This document shows, one piece after another, positions 7,760 to 41,787 of a stretch of 64,000 nt of DNA. The position numbers were made by a program, and so were the translations under genes. The first letter of the stretch is position 1. The number at the start of each line of letters is the position of its first letter. Under the pieces are notes generated by a model. It had not been told where the DNA came from and ran no database searches. It saw only the letters and a program-made list of their open reading frames with translations. This DNA comes from Isoptericola halotolerans. GTDB taxonomy: Bacteria; Actinomycetota; Actinomycetes; Actinomycetales; Cellulomonadaceae. The stretch covers positions 333,930-397,929 of the forward strand of contig NZ_JABEZU010000004.1 in the NCBI RefSeq assembly GCF_013149785.1, written 5' to 3'.

Positions 7760-8291
7760 CGTCACGATCGAGCCCGTCGTCCAGGGGCCGGTCGCCGACC
7801 GCTTCTGGGAGCTGTACCTCGAGGCCTTCGAACCCCTGCGCACCCGTGCCGCCGCACGGCACGTGCTGCACCGCGAGGAGTTCGACGACGAGATGGCCGA
7901 CCCCCGCATCCTCAAGCTGCTCGCCCACGACGACGCCGGCGAGTCGGTCGGGCTGACCACGCTCGCGACCGACCTCGCCGCCGTGCCGTGGGTCAGCCCG
8001 GAGTTCTTCGCCGCCCGGTACCCCGAGCACGCCGCCCGCGGAGCCGTCTGGTACGTCGGCTTCACCCTCGCCCACCCGGGGCGCCGGGCGACCCGCACCT
8101 TCATGGACATGATCGACGCGCTCGTCGCCCACCTGGCCGAGCACCGCGTGGTGTGCGCCTACGACGTCTCCCGGTTCAACGACGACGGCCTGCGGTTCGC
8201 CGACAACCTGCGCCGCCACCTCGAGCGCACCCAGGACGTCACCGTGGAGACGGTCGACCGGCAGACGTACTACGCGACGACGTTCCACTGA
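7752..8291 (+). CDS. GNAT-family N-acetyltransferase
   Basis: A 179-residue protein with the layout of a GNAT acetyltransferase: a substrate-binding N-terminal half (FWELYLEAFEPLR) and a beta-strand/acetyl-CoA-loop region around WYVGFTLAHPGRRATRTFMDM. The Q/RxxGxG/A acetyl-CoA signature is not canonical. It is translationally coupled to the arginine decarboxylase-like gene, so an amine product such as agmatine is a possible acceptor, which is only an inference. Its 3' end overlaps the converging flavin reductase gene by about 50 nt. Confidence 0.65.
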   Translation: MADVTIEPVVQGPVADRFWELYLEAFEPLRTRAAARHVLHREEFDDEMADPRILKLLAHDDAGESVGLTTLATDLAAVPWVSPEFFAARYPEHAARGAVWYVGFTLAHPGRRATRTFMDMIDALVAHLAEHRVVCAYDVSRFNDDGLRFADNLRRHLERTQDVTVETVDRQTYYATTFH

Positions 8292-8787
8292 TTCCCGTGA
8301 CGCTGCCGTAGGCGCGCTGGTGGTGCACGAGCGGGTCCGACGACGGGCCCTCCAGCACCTCCGACACCTGCACGACGAACAGGTCGCTCGCCCCGACGTC
8401 GTGCACCGCGACGACCCGCCCCAGGAGGCTCCACCGGGCGCCGGGCACGTGCGGGCGGCCGGCACCCCCGGCGACGGTGCTCGCGTCCCAGCGCCCCGGG
8501 TCGCCCCGGCGCGCGTACCGGTCGGCGACATCCCCCTGCCCGGCGCCGAGCAGGTTCACCGAGATCTCCGGCGTCCGGCGCAGCGCCGCCAGCCGGGAGG
8601 AGCGGCGGTCGACGCAGAAGACCAGCAGCGGCGGGTCGAGCGACGCCGCGTTCACCGAGGTCACCGTCATCCCGCCCGTCCCGTCCGGCCCGGACCACAG
8701 GACCACCGAGACCGCCGCCGGCTGGTCGGCGAACACCGTGCGCAGCCCGGTCCCGAGGGAGACGAGCTCTTCCGGCGGGCTCGTCAC
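8239..8787 (-). CDS. Flavin reductase (HpaC-like) of the metallophore operon
   Basis: A 182-residue protein of the flavin-reductase-like split-barrel family, which reduces FMN or FAD with NAD(P)H and hands the reduced flavin to a partner monooxygenase. Visible family features are the opening motif MTVTSVNAASLDPPLLVFCV, the RRSSRLAALR flavin-binding stretch and a C-terminal barrel around DLFVVQVSEVLEG. The GTG at 8787 overlaps the stop of the upstream exporter gene (GTGA), so it belongs to the NRPS operon. The luciferase-like monooxygenase at 39114-40217 is its most likely partner. The final residues overlap the convergent GNAT gene and are probably not part of the fold. Confidence 0.85.
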   Translation of the reverse strand: MTSPPEELVSLGTGLRTVFADQPAAVSVVLWSGPDGTGGMTVTSVNAASLDPPLLVFCVDRRSSRLAALRRTPEISVNLLGAGQGDVADRYARRGDPGRWDASTVAGGAGRPHVPGARWSLLGRVVAVHDVGASDLFVVQVSEVLEGPSSDPLVHHQRAYGSVTGISGTSSRSTSAGRPSPR

Positions 8788-10574
8788 GACGCGTCCACGA
8801 GCTGCCAGCCGGCCGCCTCCTGCTGCGTGGTCCACAGCCGTCGGTAGAGCCCGTCGACGGCGACGAGCTCGTCGTGGCGACCGCGCTGGACGACCCGGCC
8901 GCTCTCCAGGACGACGACGGCGTCGGCCTCGACGACGGAACGTAGCCGGTGCGCCACCACCACGACGGTGCGGGTCTCGGCGAGACGACGCAGCCCGGCG
9001 GTGATCGCCTCGTCGTGGACGGCGTCGAGCGAGGACGTCACCTCGTCGAGCACCAGCACCGGCGCCCCGGTGAGGACAGCGCGGGCCAGCGCCACCCGTT
9101 GCCGCTCGCCGCCGGAGAGCATCGAGCCGCGCGGCCCCACCGGGGCGTCCAGGCCACCGTCCCGGGTCGCGACCAGCTCGGTCAGCCCTGCCTGCCCGAC
9201 GGCGTCGAGCAGCTCGGCCTCGCTCGCCCTCGGCCGGCCCACCTGCAGGTTGTGCCGCAGCGAGCCGTCCAGCAGCACGCAGTCCTGTGGGACGACCGCC
9301 ACGAGGTCGAGCAGCTGGTCGGCGGAGAACCGGCGCACGTCCGTGCCGGCGACGGTGACGACGCCCTGCGTCGCGTCGGCCGTGCGGGCGACCAGCATGG
9401 CCAGCGTGGTCTTTCCCGCCCCCGAGGGCCCGACCAGGGCGGTCATCCCCGGAGCGGAGACCTCCAGGTCGACGTCCCGCACCGCCCACTCCGCGTCCGG
9501 GCCGTCGCCGTAGCGGTGCGAGACCCCCTGGAAGGCCACTGGCACGGCAGCACCCGGTCTACCGCCCGGCGCACCGTCGGGCAGCGGTACGCCGTCGTCC
9601 GCCGGAGCAGGCTGCCCGTGCCCGGCGTCCCGCGCCGCGGCGAACACCTCGTTGAGCTGCGCCAGGGAACGTCGGGTCATCCGCATCCCCGCGGCCAGCG
9701 CCGCGGCGGCGGAGACGGCGTCCACCACCCGCAGCCCCAGCACCAGCACCGCCAGCAGCTCGACGACACCCGTCGCGCCGTCCGCGAACCGCACCGCTGA
9801 CACCCCGACCGCGACCAGGAAGACCGCCGTGGTGAGGAGCTCGTGCACCAGCACGGCGGGCACCGCCACCCGGATCAGCCGCCGGTCCGCGGCACGCTGC
9901 GCCACGAGGGTGTCGCCCAGCCGCCCGCGGTCCTGCGACAGCCTCCCGAAGGCGCGCAGCACCGGCTGCGCCCGGACGAACTCCAGGACGCGCTCCGCCG
10001 TCGTGTCGGCCAGGTGGTGCCGACCGCCGTCGGCCGCCGCCACCATCCGGTCGGTGAGCAGGATCGACGCCACGAGCAGCGGCGTGCCCGCGAGGAGGAC
10101 CAGGCCCACGACCGGGTCGACGACGAGCAGCCCGCCCACCAGGACGACCGGGGCCACCACCGCCGTCACCAGCGGGCGCAGGAAGTGCGCGGGGACGTTC
10201 ATCGTGGCGGTCACCGTCCCCCCGGCGAGCCGCGCCACCTCACCGGACCGGCCGCGACGGAACCAGGACCGGGGCAGCCGGTCGACCGCCGCGGCGAGGC
10301 GGGCCTGGAGCGCCCGGCCGATGTCGGCACCCACCAGGAACGCTCCCCGCTGGACCAGGACCGAGACCGCCGTGGCGGCCAGGGCCACCACGATGAGCAC
10401 GACGAGGGCTCGCAGGGGATCTGCGGCCGACGGCACGAGCACGGCGCGCAGCAGGGGGACGAGGCACAGCAGGGCGCCCGCCTGCAGCCCCGCGGCGAGG
10501 ACCATCCACCCCACGAGGCGCAGCACCGGCCCGCGGTGCTGCGGTCCGAGGGCCTGGAACATCTCGGCGATCAT
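8784..10574 (-). CDS. ABC transporter half-protein (permease-ATPase), YbtQ/IrtB-like
   Basis: This is a 596-residue half-transporter: an N-terminal six-helix membrane domain (about residues 1-310) and a C-terminal ATPase with Walker A GPSGAGKTT, signature LSGGERQRVALARA, Walker B VLVLDE and the H-loop His in VVVVAHRL. GGAGG precedes the ATG at 10574. It is coupled by ATGA overlap to the first half-transporter, with which it most likely forms a heterodimer. Such pairs sit in siderophore clusters (yersiniabactin YbtPQ, mycobactin IrtAB, coelibactin). Some import the metal-loaded molecule and some export the free one. Because this cluster also has an Opp/Nik-type importer, I favour export here, but direction is not decided by sequence. 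Confidence 0.88.
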   Translation of the reverse strand: MIAEMFQALGPQHRGPVLRLVGWMVLAAGLQAGALLCLVPLLRAVLVPSAADPLRALVVLIVVALAATAVSVLVQRGAFLVGADIGRALQARLAAAVDRLPRSWFRRGRSGEVARLAGGTVTATMNVPAHFLRPLVTAVVAPVVLVGGLLVVDPVVGLVLLAGTPLLVASILLTDRMVAAADGGRHHLADTTAERVLEFVRAQPVLRAFGRLSQDRGRLGDTLVAQRAADRRLIRVAVPAVLVHELLTTAVFLVAVGVSAVRFADGATGVVELLAVLVLGLRVVDAVSAAAALAAGMRMTRRSLAQLNEVFAAARDAGHGQPAPADDGVPLPDGAPGGRPGAAVPVAFQGVSHRYGDGPDAEWAVRDVDLEVSAPGMTALVGPSGAGKTTLAMLVARTADATQGVVTVAGTDVRRFSADQLLDLVAVVPQDCVLLDGSLRHNLQVGRPRASEAELLDAVGQAGLTELVATRDGGLDAPVGPRGSMLSGGERQRVALARAVLTGAPVLVLDEVTSSLDAVHDEAITAGLRRLAETRTVVVVAHRLRSVVEADAVVVLESGRVVQRGRHDELVAVDGLYRRLWTTQQEAAGWQLVDAS

Positions 10575-12346
10575 GAACGCGCCTCCATCGGTTCGGCGTC
10601 GGCACCGGTGGCGCCGTCGTGCCCGTGCGCACGCCAGAGCGCCGCGTAGCGCCCGGCGTCGTCGGTCAGCAGCTCGTCGTGCGTCCCGCGCTGGACCACG
10701 CGCCCGTCGTCCAGGACGACGATCTGGTCGACGTGACGGACGGTGGACAGGCGGTGCGCCACCACCACGACGGTGCGCCCGCGGGCCAGGTGCGACAGCG
10801 CCCGCTGCACGTGCGCCTCGGACTCGGCGTCGGCGTAGGCCGTCGCCTCGTCGAGGACGAGGACGGGGGTGTCGGCCAGCAGCGCCCGTGCGACGGAGAT
10901 CCGCTGCGCCTCGCCCTGGGAGAACTCGACGTCGCGGCCGATCTCCGCGTCGTAGCCGCGCGGTTCCGCCAGGACCCGGTCGTGGATGCCGGCCGAGCGT
11001 GCCGCGGCGACCACGTCCTCGCGCCCGACGCCGGGGCGACCGCACGCGACGGCGTCGTGCACGCTGCCGCGCAGCAGGACGACGTCCTGGAAGACGAAGC
11101 CGACCCGTGCGTACAGCTGCTCCGTCGTCAGGTCGCGCAGGTCGACGCCACCGAGCGTGATGCGGCCGGAGTCGACGTCCTCGAACCGGGCCAGCAGCGC
11201 GGCCAGCGTCGACTTGCCCGCCCCCGAGGCGCCCACGACGGCGGTGACCGTCCCCGGCTCGCACCCGAACGACACCTCGTGCAGCACGGGGCGCTCGGCG
11301 TCGTAGCCGAACGTCACGTCCTCCAGCCGCAGGCCGTGACCGTCCGGCTCCGCCGTCGCCCGGCCCGGGGTCGGCATCGTGGGCAGGTCCAGGACCTCCT
11401 GCACCGACGCGGCGGCCGCCATGCCGCTGCGCAGCGCCGGGAGCCTCGTCCCGACCGTGCTCACCGGGGCGGTGCACAACGGTGCCAGCACGACCGCGGG
11501 CACCAGCACGGGCACGACCGCCGCGACGTCCGTCAGCCCCGCCGCGACGAGCCCGACGGCGGTGAGCACCACGACGAGGATCGCGGTGAGCGGCAGGGCG
11601 AGGACGAAGGCGACCGCCGTCGTCGTGCTGGTCTGCCCGACCCACGAGCGGAAGAAACCGTGGAAGTCCTCGCCGGCCTGCTCGAGCCGCCGTGCCTGAC
11701 CGCCGCGGCGGGCGTAGAGACGCACCACGTCGATGCACTCCACCGTCTCGACCGCGGCCCCGTTGAGCTCTGCCATCCGGCGCCCGAACTCGGCCATCCG
11801 CTGCCCGGACCCGCGCATCGTGGCCTGGAACGTCCAGACCGCCACGACGACCAGCACGAGGAGCGGCAGCCCAAGGAGCGGCCGCGTGGCGAGCAGGTAG
11901 ACGAGCACCGTCACCGGGACGGTCACGGCTCCCACGGCGTCGAGCAGCGCGTGCGCGACGAGGTGGTGCATCGACCCGGTGTCGTCCTGCACCGCCTTCT
12001 TGACCCGGCCGGCGTCGGTACCGGCGAACCAGCCGAGCCGCACCCGGGAGAGTCGGTCCACCAGACGCGCCCGCAGCGAGAGCTGCAGGTCGCTGTCGGC
12101 CAGGTGGCTGACCGTCGTCGCCGCCCCGACCAGCACCGCGGCGGCGAGCAGCGCCGCACCGGCCCAGCCGACGCTCGCCACGACCTCGGCACGGCCCACC
12201 GGAGACCCGCCCGTGGCCGCGTCGGCGGCCCGGGCGCCCAGCTCGGCCAGGACGATCAGCGCGACCGTCCCGACCACGCTCCCCGCCGCCTGCAGCACCG
12301 TCGCCGTGAGCAGCCTGCCCCGGACCGGCCCCAGTACCTGTCTCAC
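10571..12346 (-). CDS. ABC transporter half-protein (permease-ATPase), YbtP/IrtA-like
   Basis: This is a 591-residue partner of the half-transporter at 8784-10574. The membrane domain occupies about residues 1-320. The ATPase has Walker A GASGAGKST, Walker B VLVLDEAT and the H-loop in VVVVAHRLSTV. Its signature motif reads FSQGEAQRISVARA, with SQGEA in place of the usual SGGQ/SGGE, as seen in the degenerate half of some asymmetric heterodimers. The GTG at 12346 overlaps the NRPS stop (GTGA), and the GAGGAGG ribosome site lies inside the last codons of that NRPS. Confidence 0.87.
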   Translation of the reverse strand: MRQVLGPVRGRLLTATVLQAAGSVVGTVALIVLAELGARAADAATGGSPVGRAEVVASVGWAGAALLAAAVLVGAATTVSHLADSDLQLSLRARLVDRLSRVRLGWFAGTDAGRVKKAVQDDTGSMHHLVAHALLDAVGAVTVPVTVLVYLLATRPLLGLPLLVLVVVAVWTFQATMRGSGQRMAEFGRRMAELNGAAVETVECIDVVRLYARRGGQARRLEQAGEDFHGFFRSWVGQTSTTTAVAFVLALPLTAILVVVLTAVGLVAAGLTDVAAVVPVLVPAVVLAPLCTAPVSTVGTRLPALRSGMAAAASVQEVLDLPTMPTPGRATAEPDGHGLRLEDVTFGYDAERPVLHEVSFGCEPGTVTAVVGASGAGKSTLAALLARFEDVDSGRITLGGVDLRDLTTEQLYARVGFVFQDVVLLRGSVHDAVACGRPGVGREDVVAAARSAGIHDRVLAEPRGYDAEIGRDVEFSQGEAQRISVARALLADTPVLVLDEATAYADAESEAHVQRALSHLARGRTVVVVAHRLSTVRHVDQIVVLDDGRVVQRGTHDELLTDDAGRYAALWRAHGHDGATGADAEPMEARS

Positions 12347-15300
12347 AGCGCACCCTCCTCGATCTGTCCCGCGCCGAGCCGTGACAGCTCGGCCGCGACG
12401 GCGTCCACCGTGGGCTGCTGCAGGAAGGCACGGACCGTGTAGTCCACGTCCCACCGCCGGCCGGCCGCCTGGACGAAGCGCAGCGCGGCGAGGCTGTTGC
12501 CCCCGGCGGTGAAGAAGTTCGTCCGGTCGCCGTCGACGACGACCCCCACCTCGGCCCACAGCCTGGCGACCTCGCCGGCCAGCCCGACGAGCTCGGCCGG
12601 CTCGGCCGGCACCGCGCCGGGGTCGCGTCCGGCGCTGTGCCCGGCGGCGTGCCCGGCGAAGGTGGCGGCGAGCTCCGCGGCGACGGCGGCACGATCCAGC
12701 TTGCCGTTGGCTGTCAGCGGCAGCTCGTCGACGGCGACCACCCGCGCGGGGACGGCGGACGGCGGCAGGTCCTCGCGCAGCAGGTCGCGCAGCGCGGTCT
12801 CGTCGACCTGCGCCTCCGCTCCGGTGGTCACCATCGCCAGCAGCCGCGACCGGTCGTCGGCCAGGACGGCGACCCCTCTCTCGACTCCCGGGAGACGTTC
12901 CAGCGCCGCCTCGACCTCGCCGAGCTCGACCCGGTGCCCGCCCACCTTGACCTGGGCGTCGCACCGCCCGCAGAACTCCAGGGTGCCGTCCGGCCAGTAG
13001 CGGCCCAGGTCACCGGTCCGGTACCAGCGGCGTCCGGCGTCGACGACGAACTTCTCCGCCGTGAGCCCGGGGTCCCCGCAGTAGCCGCGGGCCAGGCCCG
13101 CGCCGCCGATCCACAGCTCGCCGACGACGCGGTCGGGCCGGTCGCGACGCAGGTCGTCGACGACCCGGAACTCCTGGTTGGACAGCGGGCGCCCGTACGG
13201 CACCGACGGCCAGTGCGGCTCGGCCCGGTCGAACGGCTGAGCGTTCGACCAGATGGCCGCCTCGGTGGCGCCGCCGAGGGCCAGCAGCCGGGCCTGCGGA
13301 GCCTGTGCCGCCGACCGCTCGGCCAGGTCCAGGCCCACCCAGTCGCCGGAGAGCAGCACCTGACGCAACGAGGCGAGCGAAGCGGACCCGTCGTGCCGCT
13401 CCGCCACGCCGAGCAGCAGGTCGTACAGCAGGGGGACGCTGTTCCACCACGTCACCCCGTGGAGGCTCACGAGCTCGGCCCAGCGCTCCGCGTCGCGCCG
13501 GTCGGCCTCGCTCGGCAGCACCAGCTCCGCGCCGACGGCAAGAGTGCCGAAGACGTCGAACACCGACAGGTCGAAGTCCAGCGCCGCCGAGCCGAGCACC
13601 ACGTCGTCCGCGGTGAGGCCGCAGCGCTCGACCAGGTCGTCGACGGTGTTCGCCGCCGCGGCGTGCGTGATCTCCACCCCCTTCGGCTCCCCGGTCGAGC
13701 CGGAGGTGAAGATGACGTAGGCGACCTCGTGCGGGTCCCCGGCGTGGGGAGCGCCGAGCGGCTCCGCCCCCGTGAGGTCCTCGAGACCCTCGACCGTGTG
13801 CACGAGCCGGGCCGACGCCGCGATGCGGCCGACCCGCGCGGGCGGCTGGTCGACGCCGACCGGGACGTACGCCCCGCCGGCGGCCAGCACGGCGAGCGCC
13901 GCCAGCACCTGGTCGGGGCCCTTCGGCATCCGCACCCCGACGCGGTCACCCGGTCGGACCCCCCGGTCCCGCAGCGCCCCGGCGAGCTCGAGCACCCGCG
14001 GGCGCAGGTCGCGGTGGCTGACCGTGGTCCCGTCGGCCCCGCGCAGCGCGACCCCGTCGCGCCCGGTCGAGGCGTCCAGCACGGCCCCGTGCAGCGTGCG
14101 GGGCTCGCGCACCACGGCGGTGTCGTTGACCTCGTCACGCACGGCTCGCTGCCCGATCGGCAGCGTGTCCAGCACCCGGGCGACCCGCTCGACGACGGAG
14201 TCGTCGTCCTGGGTGCAGGCCGTGATCGCGTCGCGGTACAGCGAGAACATCGCGTCGACGACGCCGTCGGCGAAGAGCCCGACGACGGAGTCCCACGTGA
14301 CGAGCAGACCGCCCTCGGACTCGGTCACCTGGTTGTCGAGGGTCACCTGCGGCGACTGGGAGATGCCGTGGACACGGCGCCCGAAGGACGGCGACATGTC
14401 CATGCCGACCCCCGGGCCCCCGACGCCGAGGCCGCTGGTGAACACCACCGGGACCGACTCGAGGCGGCCGTTGAGGCGGGTGAGCTCGCGCAGCAGCCAC
14501 GAGGACTCCACCTCGCGGTGGTCCAGGTCCTCGGCGAGCCTGGCCTGCAGGGCGGTGGCCGCCTGCTGCCAGTCGGCGCCGTCGCCCGGTCGGTAGTCCG
14601 CGAGGGACACGGTGGTGAAGTCGCCGAGGACGCGGTAGATGTCGGGGTGCACCTCGCGCCGGTTGAACATGGTCAGCGTCACCGTCAGGTCAGCGCGGTC
14701 GCTCCACCGGCCGAGGACGTGCGCGTACAGCGCGAGCAGCACCGTCGACGGGGTCAGCCGCAGCCGGCGGGCGAGCTGTTGCAGGCGTCCCCAGTCCTGC
14801 GGGTCGAGGCGGTGCTGGCGGCGCTCGAACCGCGGTGCCGCCTCGTCCACGGTGCGGCTCAGCGGGAGGGTCGGCCCGGGCGGCAGCTCGGCGAGCCGCC
14901 GGCGCCAGTACTGCTGGTCGGCGTCGACGGCCGCCGGGTCGGGGCGGTGCTGCAGCACGTAGTCGCGGAAGGACAGCTCGATCGGGGCGAGCTCGGCGCC
15001 CGGGTCCCCGACGAGCAGGTCGAGCTCGGTGAAGAGCGTCATGATCGACAGGGCGTCGAACACGATGTAGTCGAGCCCGACCGCCAGGCGCTCCCCGTCC
15101 GGGTGACGGACGAGCTCGAGGTGCCACAGCGGCGGCCGGGACAGGTCGAGCATCTGGTGGGACCACTCGTCGCGCAGTCGTCCGAGCTCGGTCGCGGACC
15201 CCACCTCGCGGACGGGCAGCTCCCACTGCTCCCCACCGGGCAGCTCCGGGTGGATGGTCAGCATCCCGTCGGCGGCGACGCTCGTGCGCAGCATCTCGTG

Positions 15301-18300
15301 GCGCGCCACGAGCCGGCGCCAGGCGCCCTCGAGGGCGGCGACGTCGAACCCGCCGGGTGGGGGGTCGAACTCGGCGTACTGCCAGGTGCCGACCCCGCCC
15401 AGCGGCAGCGCCGGGTCCCGGCCGAGCAGGTAGGCCTGCTGGACGTCCGTGCCGGGGAAGGGCAGGTGCCGCTCCTCGGGTCGCGGCTCGACCGGCCGGA
15501 CGACGCCGGACGCGACACCCCGCCCCGTGACGTGCCCGTCGCCTCCGGGGCCTTCGCCGGGCTCGACCGGCCAGGTCAGGGACGCCGCGTACTCCGCCAG
15601 GCTGGTGGCGCGCAGCAGCGCGGAGACGCGGGCGCCCTGCGCCCCCCGGCGGCGCAGCGCGGCCGTCGCGCGCGTGGCGAGCAGGGAGTCGCCTCCCAGG
15701 GAGAAGAAGTCGTCCCCGCAGCCGATCGGCCGCGGCGGGTCGAGCAGCTCGGCCCACACCTCGGCGACCTGCCGCTCCGAGGCGGTGCCGGGGGGCCTCC
15801 CGGCCGTCCCGCCGCCGCCCTGGTCGCCGTCGAGCGCCGCGTCGACCAGGGTCTCGACCGCGGAGCCGAGGACCTTGCCGTTGGCCGACAGGGGCAGCTC
15901 GGGGACGACGACCACGGGGTCGCAGACCATGTACCCCGGGACGGCCTCGGCCAACCCGGCGCGCAGATCCTGCGCGGACGGCCGCGGCTCGCGGGCGGCG
16001 ACCACCGCCGCGAGGCGGGTCGCCCCCCGCCGGTGCACGGCCCGCACGGCGGCGTCAGTGACACCGGGCATCGCACGCAGGGCGGACTCGATCTCCCCGG
16101 GCTCGATGCGGTGGCCGAGCAGCTGCAGCTGCGCGTCGCGGCGGCCGTGGAACAGCAGCGTCCCGTCGTCGCGGTACGAGGCGAGGTCGCCGGTGCGGTA
16201 CCAGCGCTCGCCGTCGACAGTCACGAACTTCTCCGCGGTGGCCTCCGGGCGCCCGCGGTACCCCTCGGCGAGCCCGGCACCGCCCATCCACAGCTCGCCG
16301 ACCACCTCGTCGCGGCAGTCCTCGCCGCGGTCGTCGACCACCCGGCACCGGACGTTGTCCAGCGGCACGCCCCAGGGGACGCCGTCGGGCAGCGCGCCGG
16401 CGGGGGAGCCGATCTCCGCGACGGTCGAGTGGATCGCCGCCTCTGTCATCCCGCCGAGCGCCAGGAAGCGCCCGCGGGGCGCGACGGTGTGGAAGCGGTC
16501 GGCCAGGTCGGTGGGGACGAGGTCCCCGCCGAGCAGCGCGGCGCGCAGCGTCACGTCGGAGGTGTCCGACGGCGCGGCGGCCAGCAGCAGCCCGAGCAGC
16601 GCGGGCACGCTGTTCCACACGGTGACGCGGTGCTGCCCGATCAGCCGCCACCACGCCTCCGGGTCCCGGCGCTCGTCCTCGCCGACCAGCACGGCGGTGC
16701 CGCCCACGGCGAGGGGGGCGAACAGGTCGTAGACGCTGAGGTCGAACTCCAGCGCGGACAGCGCGAGCGTCGCGTCGTCCGGTCCGAGCCCGAGGTGCCG
16801 GTTGAGCGCCGCGATCGTGTTCATGGCGGCCGCGTGGCTGACCTCGACGCCCTTGGGCTCGCCGGTCGAGCCGGAGGTGAACAGGACGTAGGCCGGGCGG
16901 CTCCCCTCCGTGGCCGGGTCGCTGCGCGGCCCGCCGTCCGACCCGCCGTCCGACCCGTCCTGGGGGGCGGACGCGACGGCGTCGTCGTAGGTGGTGGCGT
17001 CGATCGTCGCGACGACGTCCCCGACGCGCCGCATCGTGGCCGCGCGCGCCGCCGGCTGGTCGACGCTGATCGGCAGGTACGTCGCGCCCGCCCGCAGCAC
17101 GCCGAGCACGGCCACCGCCTGCGCGCGACCCTTCGGCAGCGTGACGGCGACGGTGCGCCCCGCGCCGACGGACCGCGCGCGCAACCACGCGGCCACCCCG
17201 GCGCTGGCCGCCGCCAGCTCGGCGTAGGTCATCGTGCCGTGCGCGTCGGCCACGGCCACCCGGTCCCGCCACGCGGGGTCCAGCTCGGCCACGGTCGTGT
17301 GCAGCAGCTGCGGGGGGTGGGCGACGGCGGTGTCGTTGACCCGGTCACGCACCTGCCGCGACGTCGCGGGCAGGCCGCCCGGCGCGGGCCGCTGCCACGC
17401 TCCGGGATCGGCCAGCAGGTCATCGATCAGGGAGCGGTAGAAGGCGAAGGCCGCGTCGGCGACACCGTCGCGCAGCACGTCGTCGCGGACGTCCCAGTTG
17501 ACCAGGAGCCCGTCGCGGAACTCGGTGACCTGCGCGTCCAACCACACCTGAGGACCTTGGGAGATGATCCAGACGGGCTCGCCGAACGTCTCGCACACCG
17601 TCCGCTCGTAGAGCTCGCCCAGGCCGATCGCGCTGGTGTAGACCACGGGCGCCAGCACCGGCGCCCCGTCCTGCCGTGCCTTGTCCCGCAGGACCTCGAC
17701 CCCCGGGTGGCTGCCGTGCGACACGGCCTGCGCGAGCCCGTCCGCGACCGCGCGGGTCCGGTCCGCCATCGTGGCGGGACGGCGCAGGTCGACCTCCAGG
17801 AGGACCGACGACGAGAAGTCGCCCACGAGCGCGCCGACGTCCGGGTGGATCTCGTCGCGGCCGAAGAGCGGCAGGTTGAGCACGAAGTGCCCGCTGCTGC
17901 TCCAGGCGCCCACCGTCTCCGCGAAGACGGTGGCCAGCACGGCCGCCGGGGTGACGCCGTGCTCGGCGGCCCGCCGCCCGAGCGTCTCGACCTGCTCCGG
18001 GCCGAGCCGGTGGTGCAGGCGACGGCTGCGCGCCGGGCGGTCGCCGGCCGCGGCAGCCACGGGGAGCTGCGGCCCGCCGGGCAGCGTGCCGAGGCGGCCA
18101 CGCCAGTACTCCGCGTCGGCGCGGCGGTCGTCCGTGCGGTCGCGGTGCTCGGTGGCCAGGTAGTCGGCGAACCCCAGGCCGGGCTCCGGCCGGGCGGCCA
18201 CCTGCTCGGGCTCGGCGTACGCCGCGCGCAGGTCCGCCAGCAGGATGCGCATGCTCAGGGCGTCGGCGGCGACCATGTCGAGGTCCAGGTGCAGCCGGGT

Positions 18301-20750: not shown

Positions 20751-20777
20751 CGATAATGATTACGAGAATGATTTTCA
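20751..20777. promoter_or_regulatory. Tandem Zur-like boxes in the divergent ligase/NRPS promoter
   Basis: The sequence CGAGAATGATTTTCA (20763-20777) matches the actinobacterial Zur palindrome TGAAAATGATTTTCA at 13 of 15 positions. An overlapping upstream copy, CGATAATGATTACGA (20751-20765), matches at 10 of 15. The two share GAnAATGATT with a 12-bp offset. They sit in the 135-bp gap between the leftward ligase operon and the rightward NRPS operon, so one site could repress both. The consensus is from memory. DtxR/IdeR-type iron boxes (TTAGGTTAGGCTAACC-like) are not seen here. Confidence 0.7.
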
Positions 20778-20818
20778 GTTAGAGTCACCACCACCACGAC
20801 GACGGGAGTGTGAGCATC

Positions 20819-33526: not shown

Positions 33527-34386
33527 GCGGTCACCCTCCCGAGGCGGGCGGCGGCCCGGTCCGCGACGACGGTGACGCCGACGATGAGCAGGACGAGCAG
33601 CGCGGAGGGGACGACGACGGCCCACGGGTTGAGCGAGATGCCCGGCAGGTTCTCCTGGACCATCAGCCCCCAGTCCGGCCACGGGGCGCCGCGGCCCAGC
33701 CCGAGGAACCCGGCGGTCGCGCTCAGGTGCAGGGCCGTGGTGAACCGCAGGCCCGTCTCGGCGGCGACCGGCGGTGCGAGGTTGGGCAGGACGTCGTGCA
33801 GCATCACCGTCCACCAGCGGTCCCCGCGCGCCCGGGCGACCTCGACGTACCCCGCCCCGGAGATCTGGCGGGCGACGGCCCGCAGGACCCTGGTGGAGTA
33901 CGGCACGCTGACGACGGCGACGCCCACCATGAGCACGAGGTCGTCGCCGGGGAAGGCCGCGGCCAGCAGCAGCAGGACGAGCAGCCCCGGCATCACCCCG
34001 AGCGCGTCCACCCCCCGCATCACGACACCACCGGCCCGGGGGAAGAGCAGGGCGGGCAGGACCCCGAGCAGGACGGCCGCCACCACACCGATGACGGTGG
34101 CCCCGGCCGCGACGAGCACGAGACGGGCACCGCCGTGCAGCACTCGCAGGGCGACGTCGCGGCCGATGCCGTCCGTGCCGAGCAGCCGGCCGTCCACGCC
34201 CGGCGCGGTGTAGGGCAGACCGACCTGTGCCGTCGGCGACCCGGGCCACAGCGGACCGAGGAGCGCCAGCAACGCCACGGCGAGGAGCACGGCCAGTCCC
34301 AGCCCGCCCGCAGCCCTCCGCGTGCGGCGTCCGAGCGGGACGGGCACGGCGAGCCGTGGGCGGGCCGTCCGACGTCGTGTGCTCAT
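33523..34386 (-). CDS. Importer permease, DppC/NikC (OppC) type
   Basis: A 287-residue inner-membrane protein with an N-terminal cytoplasmic segment, about six spans and the EAA-loop region around YVEVARARGDRWWTVMLHDVL typical of OppC-type permeases. It pairs with the OppB-type permease, whose stop it overlaps by ATGA, and with the fused ATPase. In this cluster it probably forms the channel for metal-bound metallophore or a metal complex rather than peptides. Confidence 0.92.
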   Translation of the reverse strand: MSTRRRTARPRLAVPVPLGRRTRRAAGGLGLAVLLAVALLALLGPLWPGSPTAQVGLPYTAPGVDGRLLGTDGIGRDVALRVLHGGARLVLVAAGATVIGVVAAVLLGVLPALLFPRAGGVVMRGVDALGVMPGLLVLLLLAAAFPGDDLVLMVGVAVVSVPYSTRVLRAVARQISGAGYVEVARARGDRWWTVMLHDVLPNLAPPVAAETGLRFTTALHLSATAGFLGLGRGAPWPDWGLMVQENLPGISLNPWAVVVPSALLVLLIVGVTVVADRAAARLGRVTA

Positions 34387-36945: not shown

Positions 36946-37182
36946 CTAGGTCGCATGAGCAGAGCTCGAGGCCGTGGGAACGACACGCAGCGCCCCGGCA
37001 GGGCACCGCCCGACCGCCTCGAGGGCGGCGGCGGCATCCTGAGCGGTCAGCTCGTCCTGAGCGGGCGGGAGCAGGATCACCCCGCCCAGCGTGTCGTCCT
37101 GGTCGAACAGGTCTGCCGCGACCAGCACGCAGTTCCCCGAGCCGATGCACCGGCTGCGGTCGACCACGAGTCTCGTTCCCAC
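36946..37182 (-). CDS. Ferredoxin, 3Fe-4S type
   Basis: A 78-residue ferredoxin. The cluster motif is CIGSGNC, with Ser where a 4Fe-4S protein has its second Cys, and the last ligand is in RCPAGAL. This is the form that serves actinobacterial CYP105-type P450s. The GTG at 37182 begins the uptake block; a Zur-like box ends 10 nt upstream. Its likely partner is the P450 at 29407-30651. I recall a ferredoxin at the same position before the importer in the coelibactin cluster. Confidence 0.9.
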   Translation of the reverse strand: MGTRLVVDRSRCIGSGNCVLVAADLFDQDDTLGGVILLPPAQDELTAQDAAAALEAVGRCPAGALRVVPTASSSAHAT

Positions 37183-37191
37183 AGGCGGTCA

Positions 37192-37206
37192 TGATAATCA
37201 TTCCCA
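37192..37206. promoter_or_regulatory. Zur-like box before the ferredoxin-importer genes
   Basis: TGATAATCATTCCCA matches the Zur palindrome at 12 of 15 positions. Read on the other strand it is TGGGAATGATTATCA, sharing its first 11 bases with the box at 40234-40248. It lies between the end of the PPTase gene and the ferredoxin start, so the ferredoxin-importer block probably has its own zinc-responsive promoter. Confidence 0.65.
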
Positions 37207-37207
37207 A

Positions 37208-37912
37208 CTAGCGTTGACCAGTGCCCTCGGCAAAGTCCCACGCACCGAGACGATCCACGACGACGGGCGCGGCGAGGAGAGTGACGACCGCACCCCCCAC
37301 CACCCCCCAGCGCCCGTGCAGCCGCGTGCGCCCGTCCGGGAGCGGCCGCGCGAGCTCCGCCGTCGCCGCGCCCTCCGCCGCGACGCGGACGTCGACGTCG
37401 TCGGGGTCCAGCCAGCCGTCGGTCAACGGGCTGAAGATCTTGAACGCCGACTCCTTGACGCTGAACACGACCGTGGTGCCCGGCGCCTCGGGTCGTGCCC
37501 ATCCGTGCAGACGGCGGCGCTCCTGCGGGGTCAGGAGCATGTCGACGACGTCGTCGGGCAGTGGCACCGCCGCCTCGACATCGATCCCGACGCCCTGCCA
37601 GGCGGCCGCCGACCCGACGACCGCCGCGGCCACCCCCGTGCCGTGCGACATCGAACCGACGACGCCGGCCGGCCAGCGGGGTCGACGTCGCAGGTCGTGG
37701 AGGACCGGCGCCGCCGGACGGCCGAGGTCCCGCAGCGCGGCACGCGCGCAGCGCCGGGCCGAGGCGAACTGGGCGCGCCGGACAGGCACGGCGTCCGCGA
37801 CGAGGGCACGCTCGGCGGGCAGCAGACCGTCGTCGACGATCCGGTCCGTCACCCAGGCCCGCAGCGTGCCGGTGCGCCCGCCCGGCAGCAGGGTCGGGTC
37901 GAGCCGCCTCAC
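37208..37912 (-). CDS. 4'-phosphopantetheinyl transferase (EntD/Sfp type)
   Basis: This is a 234-residue PPTase that adds the phosphopantetheine arm to the carrier domains of the two NRPSs. The magnesium and CoA site is visible as GIDVEAAVPL, and the second signature as FSVKESAFKIFSPL, which corresponds to the WxxKEA motif. A third conserved stretch, GSMSHGTGVAAAVV, precedes them. The size fits the EntD group. The GTG at 37912 overlaps the FAD oxidase stop (GTGA). It has its TAG just before the Zur-like box. Confidence 0.93.
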   Translation of the reverse strand: MRRLDPTLLPGGRTGTLRAWVTDRIVDDGLLPAERALVADAVPVRRAQFASARRCARAALRDLGRPAAPVLHDLRRRPRWPAGVVGSMSHGTGVAAAVVGSAAAWQGVGIDVEAAVPLPDDVVDMLLTPQERRRLHGWARPEAPGTTVVFSVKESAFKIFSPLTDGWLDPDDVDVRVAAEGAATAELARPLPDGRTRLHGRWGVVGGAVVTLLAAPVVVDRLGAWDFAEGTGQR

Positions 37913-39117
37913 CCCCCGACGACGGCGTGCGCGCCCGTGCCGGCGAACCGGTCCGGCGCGAACGCCCCGACCGGCAACGACGTCCGGCCCTCGACGATCC
38001 CCTCGGCCACGGCCTCGCCGATGCCCGCCGAGTGCTTGAAGCCGTGCGCGTTGCAGCCGCCGGCCACCCAGACCTGCCGCCCGTCGTCGACGGGTCCGAT
38101 CACGAACTGGCCGTCCCGGGTCCGGTCGTACGGGCAGGCGGCGCCCGTCACGCCCTCGGCGCGCACCCCGGGGAAGGCGACCGGTGCCCGCTCGAGCACC
38201 GGCGCCCAGTCCTGCGGAGCGAGCGGCCGCACCTCGCCGTCGGGCGGTAGCGGTGTCGCGGCCTCGACCCCGAGCTTGACGACCGTCGGGTCCGCGCCGG
38301 GGAGGACGCCGTGCCCCCACAGCACCCGCCCGTCGTCGAGCTCGCGCATGAAGACCGGCAGGTCGTCGACGCCCAGGCCGGCCGGGTCGTCGACCCGCAG
38401 GAACGTCATCGGCATGACGACGGTGCGCCAGCCCGCGGCCTGCACGAGGCCGGGTGCCAGGTCCGGCAGGAGGCCGGCGTTGCCGACGCCGGCGGCGAGC
38501 ACGAGCACGTCCGCGTCGATCGTCCCGCCGTCGTCCGGCCCGTGCCCGGACCACTCGACCCGGACCCCGCCCGCGCGTCGTTCGGCCCGGCGCACCGTGA
38601 CGCCGGTGCGGAGCCTGGCGCCGGCGTCGCGCGCCTGCTCGAGGGCCCCGCGGATCACCTGGTCGACGTCGAGGAGCGCGGCCTCCGGCTCGACGACGGC
38701 CAGGTGCCCGTCGGGCAGGGTGGCGTGGCCGGGGTACCGGCGTCGGACGTCCGCCGCCTCCAGCACCTCGACGGGCAGGCCGTGGAGCCTGGCGGCAAGC
38801 CGGGCTCCGCTGACCACGGGCCCGTCCGGAGGGCCCAGCAGCATGCCGCCGTCCGAGACTCGCAGGCGACGCCCGGAGCGGTCGGCGAGCCCGCGCCACA
38901 GCTCGTCGGAGCGCCGGGCCACCTCGACGAGGTCGGGGTGCTCCAGGCAGGCCGTGCGGAACATCCTCGTCGCCCCTCCGGACGAGCCGAAGCCGTGGGG
39001 AGGGGCGTGCCGGTCGAGCCCGACGACGTCGGCCCCGCGCCGCGCGAGGCGCCACGCGACGTGCGCACCCCAGGCACCGAGCCCGACGACGACCACCCGC
39101 ACCGGGGCGCGGCTCAC
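37909..39117 (-). CDS. FAD oxidase of the monomeric sarcosine oxidase/NikD family
   Basis: This is a 402-residue flavoenzyme. The N-terminal dinucleotide fold is VVVVGLGAWGAHVAWRLA with an acidic residue ending the second strand (VGLDRH), followed by the family's GSSGGATRMFR. Near the C-terminus, ACPYDRTRDGQFVIG aligns with the sarcosine oxidase/NikD segment in which the Cys binds FAD covalently, and GFKHSAGIGE follows. NikD oxidises piperideine-2-carboxylate to picolinate. Beside a lysine-type aminotransferase and a flavin monooxygenase, the best guess is aromatisation of a lysine-derived ring to (hydroxy)picolinate. An N-methyl amino acid oxidase cannot be excluded. The start is GTGA-coupled to the luciferase-like gene. 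Confidence 0.83.
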   Translation of the reverse strand: MSRAPVRVVVVGLGAWGAHVAWRLARRGADVVGLDRHAPPHGFGSSGGATRMFRTACLEHPDLVEVARRSDELWRGLADRSGRRLRVSDGGMLLGPPDGPVVSGARLAARLHGLPVEVLEAADVRRRYPGHATLPDGHLAVVEPEAALLDVDQVIRGALEQARDAGARLRTGVTVRRAERRAGGVRVEWSGHGPDDGGTIDADVLVLAAGVGNAGLLPDLAPGLVQAAGWRTVVMPMTFLRVDDPAGLGVDDLPVFMRELDDGRVLWGHGVLPGADPTVVKLGVEAATPLPPDGEVRPLAPQDWAPVLERAPVAFPGVRAEGVTGAACPYDRTRDGQFVIGPVDDGRQVWVAGGCNAHGFKHSAGIGEAVAEGIVEGRTSLPVGAFAPDRFAGTGAHAVVGG

Positions 39118-40217
39118 GCGGGCAGGGCCGGCGCCGCGTCCTGCGCGACGGGTGTCGTCACGGTGGCCCCGAGCCGAGGCGCGACCTCCTCGACGAGGAG
39201 GTCGAGCGCCCGGTGCGCCTTCACCGCGCCCAGGAGGCCGGGGTTGAGGTGCAGGCTGACGGTGACGTCCTCGCCGAACCACCGGCTGACGCGCCCGAGC
39301 TGGTCGGCGACGTCCTGCGGGGTGCCCGCCAGCACCGTGTCGTTGCCGAGGGCGCGGTCGAAGTCGTAGCCGCGGATCTTGTCGACGAGCTGCTCGTACC
39401 CGGCGTAGTCGGCGCTGCGGCGCGTCGACCACGAGGACACCGCGGTGGCCATGTGCTCGATGTAGTTGGCCTCCCACCGCCGACCGTCGGCGAGGGCGAC
39501 CTCCCGGTCGTCGCCGAGGTAGCACGTGTACTTGATCTGCACGCGGCCCGGGCCGTGACCGGCCGACTCCCGCGCCTCGCGGTAGGCGGCGAGCATCTCC
39601 TGCAGCTGCGGACGGGGCGTCACGGTAGGCACGACCTGCAGGTGGTAGCCGGCCCGGCCCGCGGCGACGCACGAGTCGAGGCTGGTGGTGGAGGCGACGA
39701 AGACCGGCGGGTGCGGGGCCTGGTGGGGCCGCGGATAGACTGTCACCGGGTCGAAGGTGGCCCACGGCAGGTCGGAGGACACGTCCTCCTCGGTCCACAG
39801 CCGCACGACGGTCTCGACGTTGCGGGCGAACCGCACGCGGCTCTCGTCCATGGGCACACCGAACGCGTCGAACTCGGTGGGCAGGAACGCGCGGCCGAAG
39901 CCGACGTCGAGCCGTCCGTGAGAGAGCTGGTCGAGGAGTGCCAGGGACGCGGCGAGCCGGATCGGATGACCGAACGCGGCGACGACGGCACCGGTCGTCA
40001 GCCGGATGCGCTCGGTGCGGGCGGCGATCGCCGTGAGCAGGGTGACGGGGTCGGGGCTGTAGCCCCCGTACCCGCTGAGCTGGTGCTCGACGACCTGGAC
40101 GTGCTCGAGGCCGAGCCGGTCCGCGTGGACCGAGAGCTCCATCACCTCGTCGTAGTAGTCGGCCGGCGTGCGCAGCGCCGGGTCGAAGACCGGGAAGAAG
40201 GTCAGGCCGAACTGCAT
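39114..40217 (-). CDS. Luciferase-like (LLM) flavin-dependent monooxygenase
   Basis: A 367-residue TIM-barrel flavoenzyme of the bacterial luciferase family, which hydroxylates substrates using reduced flavin supplied by a separate reductase. Features are the opening MQFGLTFFPVFDPA, the EHQLSGYGGYSPDP loop, IRLTTGAVVAAFGHPIRLA and GRLDVGFGRAF. The ATG at 40217 is favoured over the GTG at 40223 because GGAGG lies five bases before it. It is first in a three-gene coupled unit with the FAD oxidase and PPTase, divergent from the aminotransferase across a Zur-like box. Proposed job: C-3 hydroxylation of the lysine-derived ring with the flavin reductase at 8239-8787. Confidence 0.87.
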   Translation of the reverse strand: MQFGLTFFPVFDPALRTPADYYDEVMELSVHADRLGLEHVQVVEHQLSGYGGYSPDPVTLLTAIAARTERIRLTTGAVVAAFGHPIRLAASLALLDQLSHGRLDVGFGRAFLPTEFDAFGVPMDESRVRFARNVETVVRLWTEEDVSSDLPWATFDPVTVYPRPHQAPHPPVFVASTTSLDSCVAAGRAGYHLQVVPTVTPRPQLQEMLAAYREARESAGHGPGRVQIKYTCYLGDDREVALADGRRWEANYIEHMATAVSSWSTRRSADYAGYEQLVDKIRGYDFDRALGNDTVLAGTPQDVADQLGRVSRWFGEDVTVSLHLNPGLLGAVKAHRALDLLVEEVAPRLGATVTTPVAQDAAPALPA

Positions 40218-40233
40218 CTCCACCTCCGCCTAA

Positions 40234-40248
40234 TGGGAATGATTCTCG
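40234..40248. promoter_or_regulatory. Zur-like box in the divergent monooxygenase/aminotransferase promoter
   Basis: TGGGAATGATTCTCG matches the Zur palindrome at 11 of 15 positions. It sits in the 71-bp gap between the luciferase-like gene and the DegT-family gene. On the rightward side it is followed by TAGAGT (40257-40262), a possible -10 element, so occupancy would block initiation. It would place the starter-acid genes under the same control as the NRPS genes. Confidence 0.65.
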
Positions 40249-40288
40249 TTCTACAGTAGAGTACGGTCGACCGTCGTCAGGGGAGCCC

Positions 40289-41536
40289 ATGACCATCTCG
40301 CAGAGCCACGCCACCGGCCGGCACTACCGCGTCGCGGCACCGCCGCGCGGCAGCGTGCTCGGCCAGGCGGAGATCGACGCGCTGACCGCGGTGCTGGAGG
40401 ACGGCGCCAGCCTCAGCGCTGCGAGCCGGCGCGAAGAGTTCGAGGCCGAGCTCGCCGCCCTGGTCGGCTGCCGGCACGCCCTGACCGTCACCAGCGGCAC
40501 CGTCGCCCTCGAGATCGCCATCCGCCTGCTCGACCTGCAGGCCGGCGACGAGGTCGTCGTCACGCCGCAGACCTTCCAGGCCACCGCCCAGCCGCTGCTC
40601 GACTCGCCCGCGACGGTCCGCTTCTGCGACGTCGACCCGGTCACCCTCAACCTCGACCCCGACGTCCTGGCCGGTCTGCTCACCGAGCGCACCCGCGCGG
40701 TGATCCTCGTGCACTACGGCGGCCGACCGGCGGCCATGCCGGCGATCACCGCCCTGGCCCACGCCCACGGTGCGCTGGTCGTCGAGGACTGCGCGCACGC
40801 CCTCGGTGCCTCGACCCCCGAGGGCGCACCCGGCTCGCTGGGTGACATCGGGTGCTTCAGCTTCCACTCCTCGAAGAACATCACCACCCTCGGCGAAGGT
40901 GGTCTCATCACGCTGCACGACGACGCCCTCGCCCACCGGGTGCGCCGCATCCGCGACAACCGCATCGACATCCGCCTCAGCGAGACCGACCGGTCGGCGC
41001 CCTTCACCGAGCTGCGGCCGTGGCTCATCTACGCCGACGAGCTCGACAACGGCGTCAGCGAGATCCGGCGCTCCGGCACCAACGCGACGCTCTCCGAGGC
41101 AGCCTGCGCGGTCGGGCTGGCCCAGCTCGAGAGGCTGCCGCGGATGATCGCCCGACGCGCCGCGATCGTGGACCGGCTCGACGCCGTCGTCGCCGACGTG
41201 CCGGGGTTCACCGTCCAGGGACCGACACCCGGCGTCCGCAGCGCGCACCACCTCTACACCGCGTTCTGCGAGCTCGGCGCGCCGGCGCGCCACCAGGTGC
41301 TCACCGACCTCGACCACGCCGGGGTCCAGGTCCAGCTGCGCTACGCACCGCTGCACCTCACCCCCGAGTGGCAGCTGCGCGGGCACCGCCGCGGCGAGTG
41401 CCCCGTCGCCGAGCGCGACTGGGACGAGCGGCACCTCAACCTTCCCTGCCAGCCCACCCTCACCGACGACCAGGTCGACGTCCTCGCCACCGAGCTCGAC
41501 CGGGCGCTGCGCGCCGCGTCGTCCCGTTACGCCTGA
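40289..41536 (+). CDS. DegT/DnrJ/EryC1-family aminotransferase, candidate lysine 2-aminotransferase
   Basis: This is a 415-residue PLP enzyme. The Schiff-base Lys is in CFSFHSSKNITTLGEGG, the cofactor-contacting acidic pair is in VVEDCAHALGA, and the N-terminal TSGTVALEIA holds the phosphate. Family members aminate nucleotide sugars or act on amino acids. No sugar genes are nearby. As I recall, the lysine 2-aminotransferases that start picolinate and 3-hydroxypicolinate synthesis (NikC, VisA type) belong to this family, and an oxidase and a two-component monooxygenase are encoded next door. I infer conversion of lysine to the 2-keto acid, which closes to piperideine-2-carboxylate. It is transcribed away from the luciferase-like gene. 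Confidence 0.85.
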   Translation: MTISQSHATGRHYRVAAPPRGSVLGQAEIDALTAVLEDGASLSAASRREEFEAELAALVGCRHALTVTSGTVALEIAIRLLDLQAGDEVVVTPQTFQATAQPLLDSPATVRFCDVDPVTLNLDPDVLAGLLTERTRAVILVHYGGRPAAMPAITALAHAHGALVVEDCAHALGASTPEGAPGSLGDIGCFSFHSSKNITTLGEGGLITLHDDALAHRVRRIRDNRIDIRLSETDRSAPFTELRPWLIYADELDNGVSEIRRSGTNATLSEAACAVGLAQLERLPRMIARRAAIVDRLDAVVADVPGFTVQGPTPGVRSAHHLYTAFCELGAPARHQVLTDLDHAGVQVQLRYAPLHLTPEWQLRGHRRGECPVAERDWDERHLNLPCQPTLTDDQVDVLATELDRALRAASSRYA

Positions 41537-41568
41537 CCCCACCACCAGAACGCAGAAGGAGCCCACCC

Positions 41569-41787
41569 GTGCCATTCATCGAGGTCAAGATCTTCGAGGA
41601 GCGCCTCACCCCCGAGACCGAGGCAGCCCTGCTGACCGAGCTGTCGGGGGCCGTGGGGCGGACCCTGGGGCCCGACGCCGAGGCCAGCACCTGGGTGGTG
41701 CTGCACGGCACCCCCGCCCAGCGGTGGGCCGTCGCGGGCGAGGTCCAGGGCCGCGCCGACCGGGACGACGTCGGGGCACCGGCCTAG
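41569..41787 (+). CDS. 4-oxalocrotonate tautomerase-type small protein
   Basis: This 72-residue protein starts GTG-CCA, so after removal of fMet it would expose an N-terminal Pro, the catalytic base of the tautomerase superfamily (PFIEVKIFEERL). Size and predicted beta-alpha-beta fold fit the 4-OT group. AGAAGGAG lies 7 nt upstream. It follows the aminotransferase by 32 nt and is probably co-transcribed. It could speed imine-enamine or keto-enol exchange of the lysine-derived ring. That role is inference; no tautomerase is known to me as a fixed part of picolinate pathways. Confidence 0.8.
   Translation: MPFIEVKIFEERLTPETEAALLTELSGAVGRTLGPDAEASTWVVLHGTPAQRWAVAGEVQGRADRDDVGAPA

Follow-up and report, generated by a model that had tools for sequence, protein, structure and literature searches.

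Among described nonribosomal peptide synthetase (NRPS) systems, those for the metallophores coelibactin and sorangibactin stand closest to the gene cluster considered here, which occupies positions 8239-41787 of a 64,000-nucleotide stretch of the Isoptericola halotolerans genome (contig NZ_JABEZU010000004.1, positions 333,930 to 397,929; hereafter the window). The myxobacterial sorangibactin (srb) cluster has the same NRPS domain order, a thioesterase (TE) with a cysteine nucleophile, a saccharopine-dehydrogenase-like protein, two methyltransferases, a cytochrome P450, an imine reductase and the salicylate synthase SrbB (excerpts of PMC10127202). Coelibactin, which had not been isolated as of 2023 according to the same excerpts, is specified by Streptomyces coelicolor SCO7676-92; the Zur motif of that organism is tGaNNatSatNNtCa, and zinc-Zur represses the coelibactin genes (excerpts of PMC5472717). 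A different starter, 3-hydroxypicolinate, requires a lysine 2-aminotransferase, an FAD dehydrogenase, an FMN monooxygenase and an FMN reductase (excerpts of PMC11481915, where a reconstitution in vitro is cited for this), and it begins pristinamycin I, with SnbA and HpaA taking part (excerpts of PMC9854754).

Comparison of the window with these systems makes it likely, in our judgement, that the cluster serves both synthesis and uptake of a coelibactin/sorangibactin-family zinc metallophore bearing a 3-hydroxypicolinate head instead of salicylate. An initial annotation of this DNA had proposed such a head group, and the core of that proposal is supported by the gene content, by cassettes homologous to those of pristinamycin I type, by the lack of a salicylate synthase at the family cut-off, by ligase residues and by Zur boxes. 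Our evidence is homology and context throughout; what we observe are the gene content, the synteny, the residues and clade of the ligase, the boxes and the genomic island.

Scaffold and gene content

On sequence grounds, the segment classifies as a coelibactin/sorangibactin-type NRPS metallophore cluster. It encodes synthetases of the arrangements ArCP-Cy-A-PCP-Cy-A-PCP and Cy-A-MT-PCP-TE, the latter ending in a Cys-nucleophile TE, together with a saccharopine-dehydrogenase-like protein, an imine reductase, a P450 and two methyltransferases; the family trait that it lacks is a salicylate synthase gene for the starter. Its domain and gene content matches SrbC/D/E/F/G/H/I/K including the Cys-type TE, whereas for SrbB and the VOC protein SrbJ no counterpart is seen in the window. 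Pfam profiles, open-frame analysis and NCBIfam cut-offs gave the following inventory.

8239-8787 (-): flavin reductase (HpaC/RutF-like), proposed FMNH2 source for the luciferase-like monooxygenase; PF01613, 3.7e-24; NCBIfam FerA/HpaC/RutF models all below cut-off
8784-10574 (-): half ABC transporter B, which we take to be IrtAB/YbtPQ-like; PF00005, PF00664; homologue at 38-42% in 11 of 18 coelibactin-like loci
10571-12346 (-, start approximate): half ABC transporter A; PF00005, PF00664; homologue at 44-47% in 11 of 18 coelibactin-like loci
12343-18999 (-): NRPS1, ArCP-Cy-A-PCP-Cy-A-PCP; A1 code DLYNLGLIHK, A2 code DLFNLSLIWK
19055-20683 (-): aryl-AMP ligase; F234, Y236, C240, S307, A308 (DhbE numbering); TIGR02275, 580 bits, below cut-off 723.55
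20763-20777: predicted Zur box between ligase (-) and NRPS2 (+)
20810-26317 (+): NRPS2, TubC_N-Cy-A-MT-PCP-TE; A code DLWNLSLIWK (Cys type); TE motif GYCLGG, Cys at the nucleophile place
26314-27531 (+): saccharopine-dehydrogenase-like oxidoreductase, presumably SrbE-like; open frame, no NCBIfam match
27528-29414 (+): thiazolinyl imine reductase fused to methyltransferase; TIGR01761, 249 bits, above cut-off 188.8; PF01408, PF21390, PF13649
29407-30651 (+): cytochrome P450, SrbH/CYP105N1 counterpart by position; PF00067; 43-53% in 13 core relatives, one match partial
30645-31418 (+): type II thioesterase; PF00975
31415-32119 (+): second methyltransferase; PF08242
32132-33526 (-): DppD-DppF-like double ATPase; PF00005 in two stretches and frame
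33523-34386 (-): DppC-like permease; PF00528
34383-35348 (-): DppB-like permease; PF00528, PF19300
35359-36945 (-): family 5 solute-binding lipoprotein (SBP), proposed metal-metallophore receptor; PF00496, 1.3e-67
36946-37182 (-): ferredoxin-like protein, proposed P450 partner; frame and Cys motif by eye; homologue near the cluster in 12 of 18 relatives
37192-37206: predicted Zur box upstream of the ferredoxin-SBP-Dpp genes
37208-37948 (-, start uncertain): phosphopantetheinyl transferase (PPTase); PF17837, PF01648
37909-39117 (-): sarcosine-oxidase-family FAD enzyme (DAO), proposed 3-hydroxypicolinate-pathway dehydrogenase; PF01266; homologues adjoin the luciferase-like gene in pristinamycin-type plasmids
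39114-40217 (-): luciferase-like FMN monooxygenase (Luc), proposed 3-hydroxylase; PF00296; 54-62% to cassette homologues, clade 99/99
40234-40248: predicted Zur box between Luc (-) and DegT (+)
40289-41536 (+): DegT-family aminotransferase, proposed L-lysine 2-aminotransferase (HpaA-like); PF01041, 1.1e-90; 52-58% to 13 cassette homologues
41569-41787 (+): 4-oxalocrotonate-tautomerase-family (4-OT) protein, Pro after the first codon; PF01361

The ligase, NRPS, imine reductase, P450, DegT, FAD oxidase, luciferase-like and flavin reductase genes listed in the initial annotation were all recovered in place by Pfam and open frames. The half-ABC pair, the saccharopine-dehydrogenase-like protein, the two methyltransferases (one of them fused), the type II thioesterase, the SBP-DppBCDF system, the ferredoxin, the PPTase and the 4-OT protein come in addition.

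Relatives of the scaffold were collected with the saccharopine-dehydrogenase-like protein, which matched 26 of 392 Streptomyces genomes at E<=1e-40, and 18 of these loci were mapped over at most 60 kb each; among 148 genomes searched nearer the host, the protein was found at E<=1e-30 in two, the host genome itself and one weak match. Thirteen of the 18 loci form a core group in which every biosynthetic gene is matched at 34-61% identity (the P450 match in G835 is partial), and SBP-DppBCDF and the half-ABC pair occur in 12 and 11 of the 18, respectively. Common to the window and these coelibactin-like loci are SBP-DppBCDF, the ferredoxin, the ligase, two NRPSs, the saccharopine-dehydrogenase-like protein, the imine reductase, both methyltransferases, the P450 and the type II thioesterase, as well as the half-ABC pair, a Zur box at the ligase/NRPS promoter and the Cys-type TE, whose GYC motif is found in 14 of 18 relatives and reads GYCLGG in the window. 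In contrast to these loci, the window has DegT, Luc, DAO, flavin reductase and 4-OT genes replacing the salicylate synthase, a Zur box within this cassette, divergent NRPS1 and NRPS2, and the fusion of imine reductase and methyltransferase in a single open frame (27528-29414) with a Pro/Ala-rich linker, the two parts of which have separate matches in the core Streptomyces relatives. The likeness to coelibactin is drawn from these Streptomyces loci.

The adenylation-domain codes of modules 1, 2 and 3 read DLYNLGLIHK, DLFNLSLIWK and DLWNLSLIWK, the last two of which are Cys-like. Gly301 and His331 of the module 1 code are common to the first modules of 17 of the 18 relatives, G629 being the exception. 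For sorangibactin module 1, Cys was predicted and labelling showed incorporation of serine (excerpts of PMC10127202). Because the module 1 code is unlike those of the Cys-type modules 2 and 3, and because the sorangibactin homologue takes Ser, position 1 is probably Ser or Thr, followed by two Cys, and the backbone of an aryl acid plus three cysteines that had been suggested earlier is probably wrong. By analogy with the homocysteine thiolactone of sorangibactin, a further C-terminal unit may follow.

Starter cassette and aryl-AMP ligase

A cassette of DegT aminotransferase, luciferase-like monooxygenase, sarcosine-oxidase-family FAD enzyme, flavin reductase and 4-OT protein stands in the window where the relatives keep a chorismate-binding gene. 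Such a gene lies beside the cluster in 14 of the 18 relatives (the 13 core loci and G629), and both of the two that were tested (G522, 419 bits; G722, 424 bits) score above the TIGR03494 cut-off of 325 as salicylate synthases. Conversely, DegT, DAO and 4-OT have no match at E<=1e-6 in any of the 18 loci, and Luc has one partial match (29%), in G629. The other four of the 18 loci (G626, G703, G491 and G525) have coelibactin-like NRPS pairs, with neither a salicylate synthase nor a 3-hydroxypicolinate cassette in the stretch examined; their other genes differ too.

All four enzyme types named in the excerpts of PMC11481915 are present in the window, which agrees with the earlier suggestion that these genes fit a 3-hydroxypicolinate pathway. 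The assignments are by homology: the DegT protein shares 52-58% identity with the DegT proteins of 13 cassettes, of which three lie on pristinamycin-type plasmids, and would be the lysine 2-aminotransferase of the HpaA/VisA kind; Luc and the flavin reductase would supply the FMN-dependent monooxygenase, and DAO the FAD-dependent dehydrogenase. Within the phylum, 3 of 396 genomes (own genome included) have Luc homologues at E<=1e-90, as do 27 of 392 Streptomyces genomes, and the FAD oxidase at E<=1e-70 occurs in one of 98 relatives, namely the host itself. In a Luc tree of 28 rows, 27 of them different, the window and 18 cassette or streptogramin-type rows form a clade with support 99/99, outside which nine rows of 46-54% identity fall. 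The genomic contexts examined comprise 16 Streptomyces loci (L048 being the S. xanthii plasmid again), two in G246, one in G107, the loci L015 and L016, and five plasmid loci; a related-locus search with the Luc protein yielded five loci, of which two were of use.

On each of three Streptomyces plasmids, genes for a P450, a cyclodeaminase, an AMP-ligase, DegT and 4-OT follow one another, and in two of the three this row is flanked by genes of the pabB, chorismate-mutase and prephenate-dehydrogenase types. We assume this gene make-up to serve pristinamycin I biosynthesis. At a distance of 57-61 kb, each of these plasmids also has genes for Luc, a solA-type FAD enzyme and a PPTase, joined in two cases by a flavin reductase gene. 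Loci with Luc and DAO and no DegT had been considered a separate pathway, an idea dropped for the plasmids since DegT, ligase and 4-OT were found 57-61 kb away; it may still hold for L047, L049, L050 and L052, which have Luc and DAO without DegT in the stretches examined. A 4-OT gene lies near the DegT homologue (52-58%) in 13 of 13 loci, with Pro after the first codon in every case, a pattern by which we assign the 4-OT protein to the cassette. It accompanies the cassette, whereas the described pathway names four enzymes only, and we flag it as an invariable member of the 3-hydroxypicolinate-type cassettes examined.

With the 3-hydroxypicolinate pathways of pristinamycin I, virginiamycin S and siderochelin, the window has in common the four enzyme types and Ser307 of the ligase; it differs from them in that its cassette lies under predicted Zur boxes and would feed a Cy-domain metallophore line, and in that its ligase falls outside the SnbA-type clade. 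The same cassette is found on plasmid pSGZL of Streptomyces sp. 769 (L063), beside one NRPS with the Cys-type code DLYNLSLIWK that aligns with residues 61-1507 of NRPS2 at 42%; unlike the window, this locus has a single NRPS gene, no Dpp or half-ABC matches and no Zur box within 2 mismatches. At 10931-22303 of L063, the cassette and an NRPS aligning with NRPS2 across Cy-A-MT-PCP stand together, similar NRPS matches occur in L010 and L054, and by its expected composition we infer L063 to be a desferrithiocin-type cluster. Two further Streptomyces loci (L051 in G610 and L055 in G687) have the cassette and a window-like half-ABC pair beside DegT and 4-OT, with no Zur box; they are possibly further 3-hydroxypicolinate metallophores under other control.

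Ser307 is present in 13 of 13 cassette ligases, that is, in the window, L015, L016 and ten SnbA-type ligases, three of the latter on pristinamycin-type plasmids (12 of 12 when the window is set aside), and in none of 17 salicylate, 2,3-dihydroxybenzoate or background ligases. These 17 comprise 13 background ligases and four references from the PDB; L009 and L011, which stood among 15 background rows, are cassette loci and were not recounted. Residue 307 presumably lines the acyl pocket, as in DhbE-type structures. Among the 18 coelibactin-like ligases, the position is Gly in ten, Ala in four and Ser in four. The window ligase combines Ser307 with Cys240 in the SnbA manner, and its Cys240 argues against 2,3-dihydroxybenzoate, since both reference ligases for that acid have Ser240. 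Its ancestry is another: the window and L015 ligases group with the coelibactin ligases (100/99), and the ten SnbA-type ligases form a clade of their own (100/100). The best reading is of a resident coelibactin-type ligase retuned in place. That a salicylate line can accept 3-hydroxypicolinate is indicated by a review, excerpts of which report that feeding it to a pyochelin producer gave analogues, with improved or altered iron transport.

The host genome, estimated to be 100% complete, offers no salicylate source at the family cut-offs. No salicylate synthase reaches the TIGR03494 cut-off genome-wide (best 177 of 325 bits) and none was found among the window ORFs scanned, which bears out the initial annotation on a point that could have refuted it; the sole PchB-like match genome-wide lies below cut-off (49 of 73 bits). 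The three chorismate-binding proteins are TrpE (by equivalog cut-offs), an isochorismate synthase (TIGR00543, subfamily cut-off) and a PabB-like protein below cut-off. At E<=1e-120, the genome has a single ligase of this type.

Predicted zinc control

Regulation by zinc had also been predicted, and it is supported by three predicted boxes and by the same motif at the host's own zinc genes. Within the window, TGAAAATNATTTTCA with at most 3 mismatches gives 2 matches against 0.01 expected from shuffling, and the third site (40234-40248) emerged from base composition and again with a relaxed pattern. Genome-wide, TGRNAATGATTNTCA with at most 2 mismatches gives 27 rows over both strands, against 2 for the reversed control. 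Three of five other strong sites examined in the genome lie by classical Zur-type genes: L28 with type-B L31 (over cut-offs), a zinc-type ABC binding protein and a CobW-type GTPase. The remaining two lie by an unassigned methyltransferase and upstream of a FecCD/BtuC-type permease (L085, G000:C2, around 689446), possibly a further zinc or metallophore importer.

With TGANAATNATTNTCA within 2 mismatches, the box at the ligase/NRPS1 promoter recurs in 13 of 13 core coelibactin-like loci and in L015, in none of the five other coelibactin-like loci, and no box of any kind appears in nine cassette loci outside the coelibactin family. The window has its ligase/NRPS promoter box, like the Streptomyces members, at 20763-20777. 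By their positions, two between divergent genes and one ahead of the ferredoxin-SBP-Dpp genes, the three predicted boxes can serve five transcription units.

Proposed pathway, alternatives and genomic setting

From the homologies above, we propose that the DegT enzyme converts lysine to its 2-keto acid, which would cyclise to piperideine-2-carboxylate, that hydroxylation at C3 falls to the luciferase-like enzyme, aided by the flavin reductase, that the FAD enzyme aromatises the ring and that the 4-OT protein tautomerises an intermediate. The ligase would load 3-hydroxypicolinate onto the ArCP domain, module 1 would probably add Ser or Thr as an oxazoline, to be oxidised by the P450, and modules 2 and 3 would add Cys as thiazolines that are reduced by the imine reductase and methylated, before release of the chain by the Cys-type TE. 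Movement of the metal complex would fall to the Dpp-type system and the half-ABC pair, and Zur would repress all five transcription units at sufficient zinc. Chemistry, metal, transport direction and repression are all predictions by homology here. We lean, by a small margin of confidence, towards an origin in which a Zur-controlled line swapped its starter supply: the lysine-to-3-hydroxypicolinate cassette shared with streptogramin clusters would have replaced the salicylate synthase and been wired to Zur, with the ligase retuned to Ser307 as in the SnbA type.

A partial second case occurs in Streptomyces sp. SID3343, whose 15.2 kb contig (L015) holds, in a different order, SBP-DppBCDF, 4-OT, DegT, Luc, DAO, the ligase and the beginning of NRPS1. 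The tree keeps the window and L015 ligases apart, but placing them in one clade costs 7.57 log units and is not rejected (approximately unbiased test, p 0.213); the two loci may reflect independent swaps or one event, and with independent swaps the exchange of starter and the change in the ligase would each have arisen twice. As for the earlier suggestion that coupling a 3-hydroxypicolinate starter to a Zur-controlled scaffold is new, the same combination stands in SID3343. Among the matches listed in openly licensed literature, no prior description of a 3-hydroxypyridyl oxazol(in)e/thiazoline zinc ligand, the predicted product, was found, which does not show its absence from print.

Several observations weigh against the 3-hydroxypicolinate zincophore. 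A separate 6 kb contig of SID3343 (L209) encodes a salicylate synthase (383 bits), between what we read as TetR-like and MetE-like frames, and L015 is weaker as independent confirmation because of it; no siderophore gene was seen on that contig. Ser307 is not exclusive to cassette ligases, as G626, G703, G491 and G525 also carry it with Cys240 (and H234, A236 and S308), their starter being unassigned. Phe234, which had seemed diagnostic of 3-hydroxypicolinate ligases against the 2,3-dihydroxybenzoate and salicylate references, was dropped because all 13 core coelibactin ligases carry it. The placing of the window DegT and DAO proteins in their trees is unsure because their branches are flagged long (1.15 and 1.41). 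Against solved structures, the FAD enzyme scores 184.5 bits with sarcosine oxidase and 64.6 with NikD; an FAD enzyme is thus present, as annotated, and its description as NikD-like was too specific, the likeness to NikD being loose and sarcosine oxidase far nearer. The genome has an isochorismate synthase, the later enzymes of the 2,3-dihydroxybenzoate route not having been searched for genome-wide, and the zinc-type ABC binding protein and the CobW-type GTPase at two of the classical Zur sites score below their equivalog cut-offs.

The ligase's place in the coelibactin clade (100/99) and the salicylate synthase on another SID3343 contig would both suit an ordinary salicylate-primed metallophore fed from elsewhere, with the lysine cassette serving another product or surviving as a relic. 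We hold this to be very improbable: the host genome has no salicylate synthase or PchB at cut-off and just one ligase of this kind, and the cassette genes are open frames within the island with a Zur box between them. Just as improbable, in our view, is picolinate or another lysine-derived heterocycle, such as a partly reduced 3-hydroxy ring, as the starter; substrates are not readable from sequence and DAO and DegT diverge from their homologues, but the luciferase-like enzyme belongs to the 99/99 clade with the pristinamycin-type plasmid homologues, and Ser307 and Cys240 match the ligases of those plasmids. Somewhat less remote, though still unlikely, is a real product that acts as an antibiotic or chelates iron while its genes respond to zinc. 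3-Hydroxypyridyl-thiazolines such as desferrithiocin are iron chelators. The fed pyochelin analogues showed improved or altered iron transport (excerpts of the review) and coelibactin itself was unisolated by 2023 (excerpts of PMC10127202), whereas the three predicted Zur boxes, the importer genes in the cluster and the zinc-Zur repression of the S. coelicolor genes (excerpts of PMC5472717) speak for zinc.

If the 3-hydroxypicolinate zincophore is real, the window would record a natural starter-unit swap in a zincophore assembly line and would point to changes that may suffice for one: a cassette, ligase residue 307 and a Zur box. Because coelibactin was unisolated by 2023 (excerpts of PMC10127202), a lysine-labelled pyridine-head variant would also be a new handle on the product of that family.

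The cluster is a discrete island of 33.5 kb that is present or absent as a unit, and the limits drawn in the initial annotation nearly coincide with it. In the same-genus genome G403, the window flanks 2015-8292 (80% identical) and 41808-43665 (90%) lie 883 bp apart; the gap holds one frame that we read as alpha/beta-hydrolase-like. In G411, only the right flank is matched in the 30 kb examined, and RidA, to the right of the cluster, has matches at E<=1e-15 in these two of 17 other same-genus genomes. No common 11-mer, and hence no direct repeat of that kind, was found between the two 300-base boundary stretches. The GC content of the island is 75.6%, against 74.0% to its left and 70.9% to its right. 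About 3 kb from the island, positions 44336-64000 hold FhaA, PP2C, PbpA-type and PknB-type genes and three tRNA genes, an arrangement that we take to be typical of origin-near actinobacterial chromosome regions.

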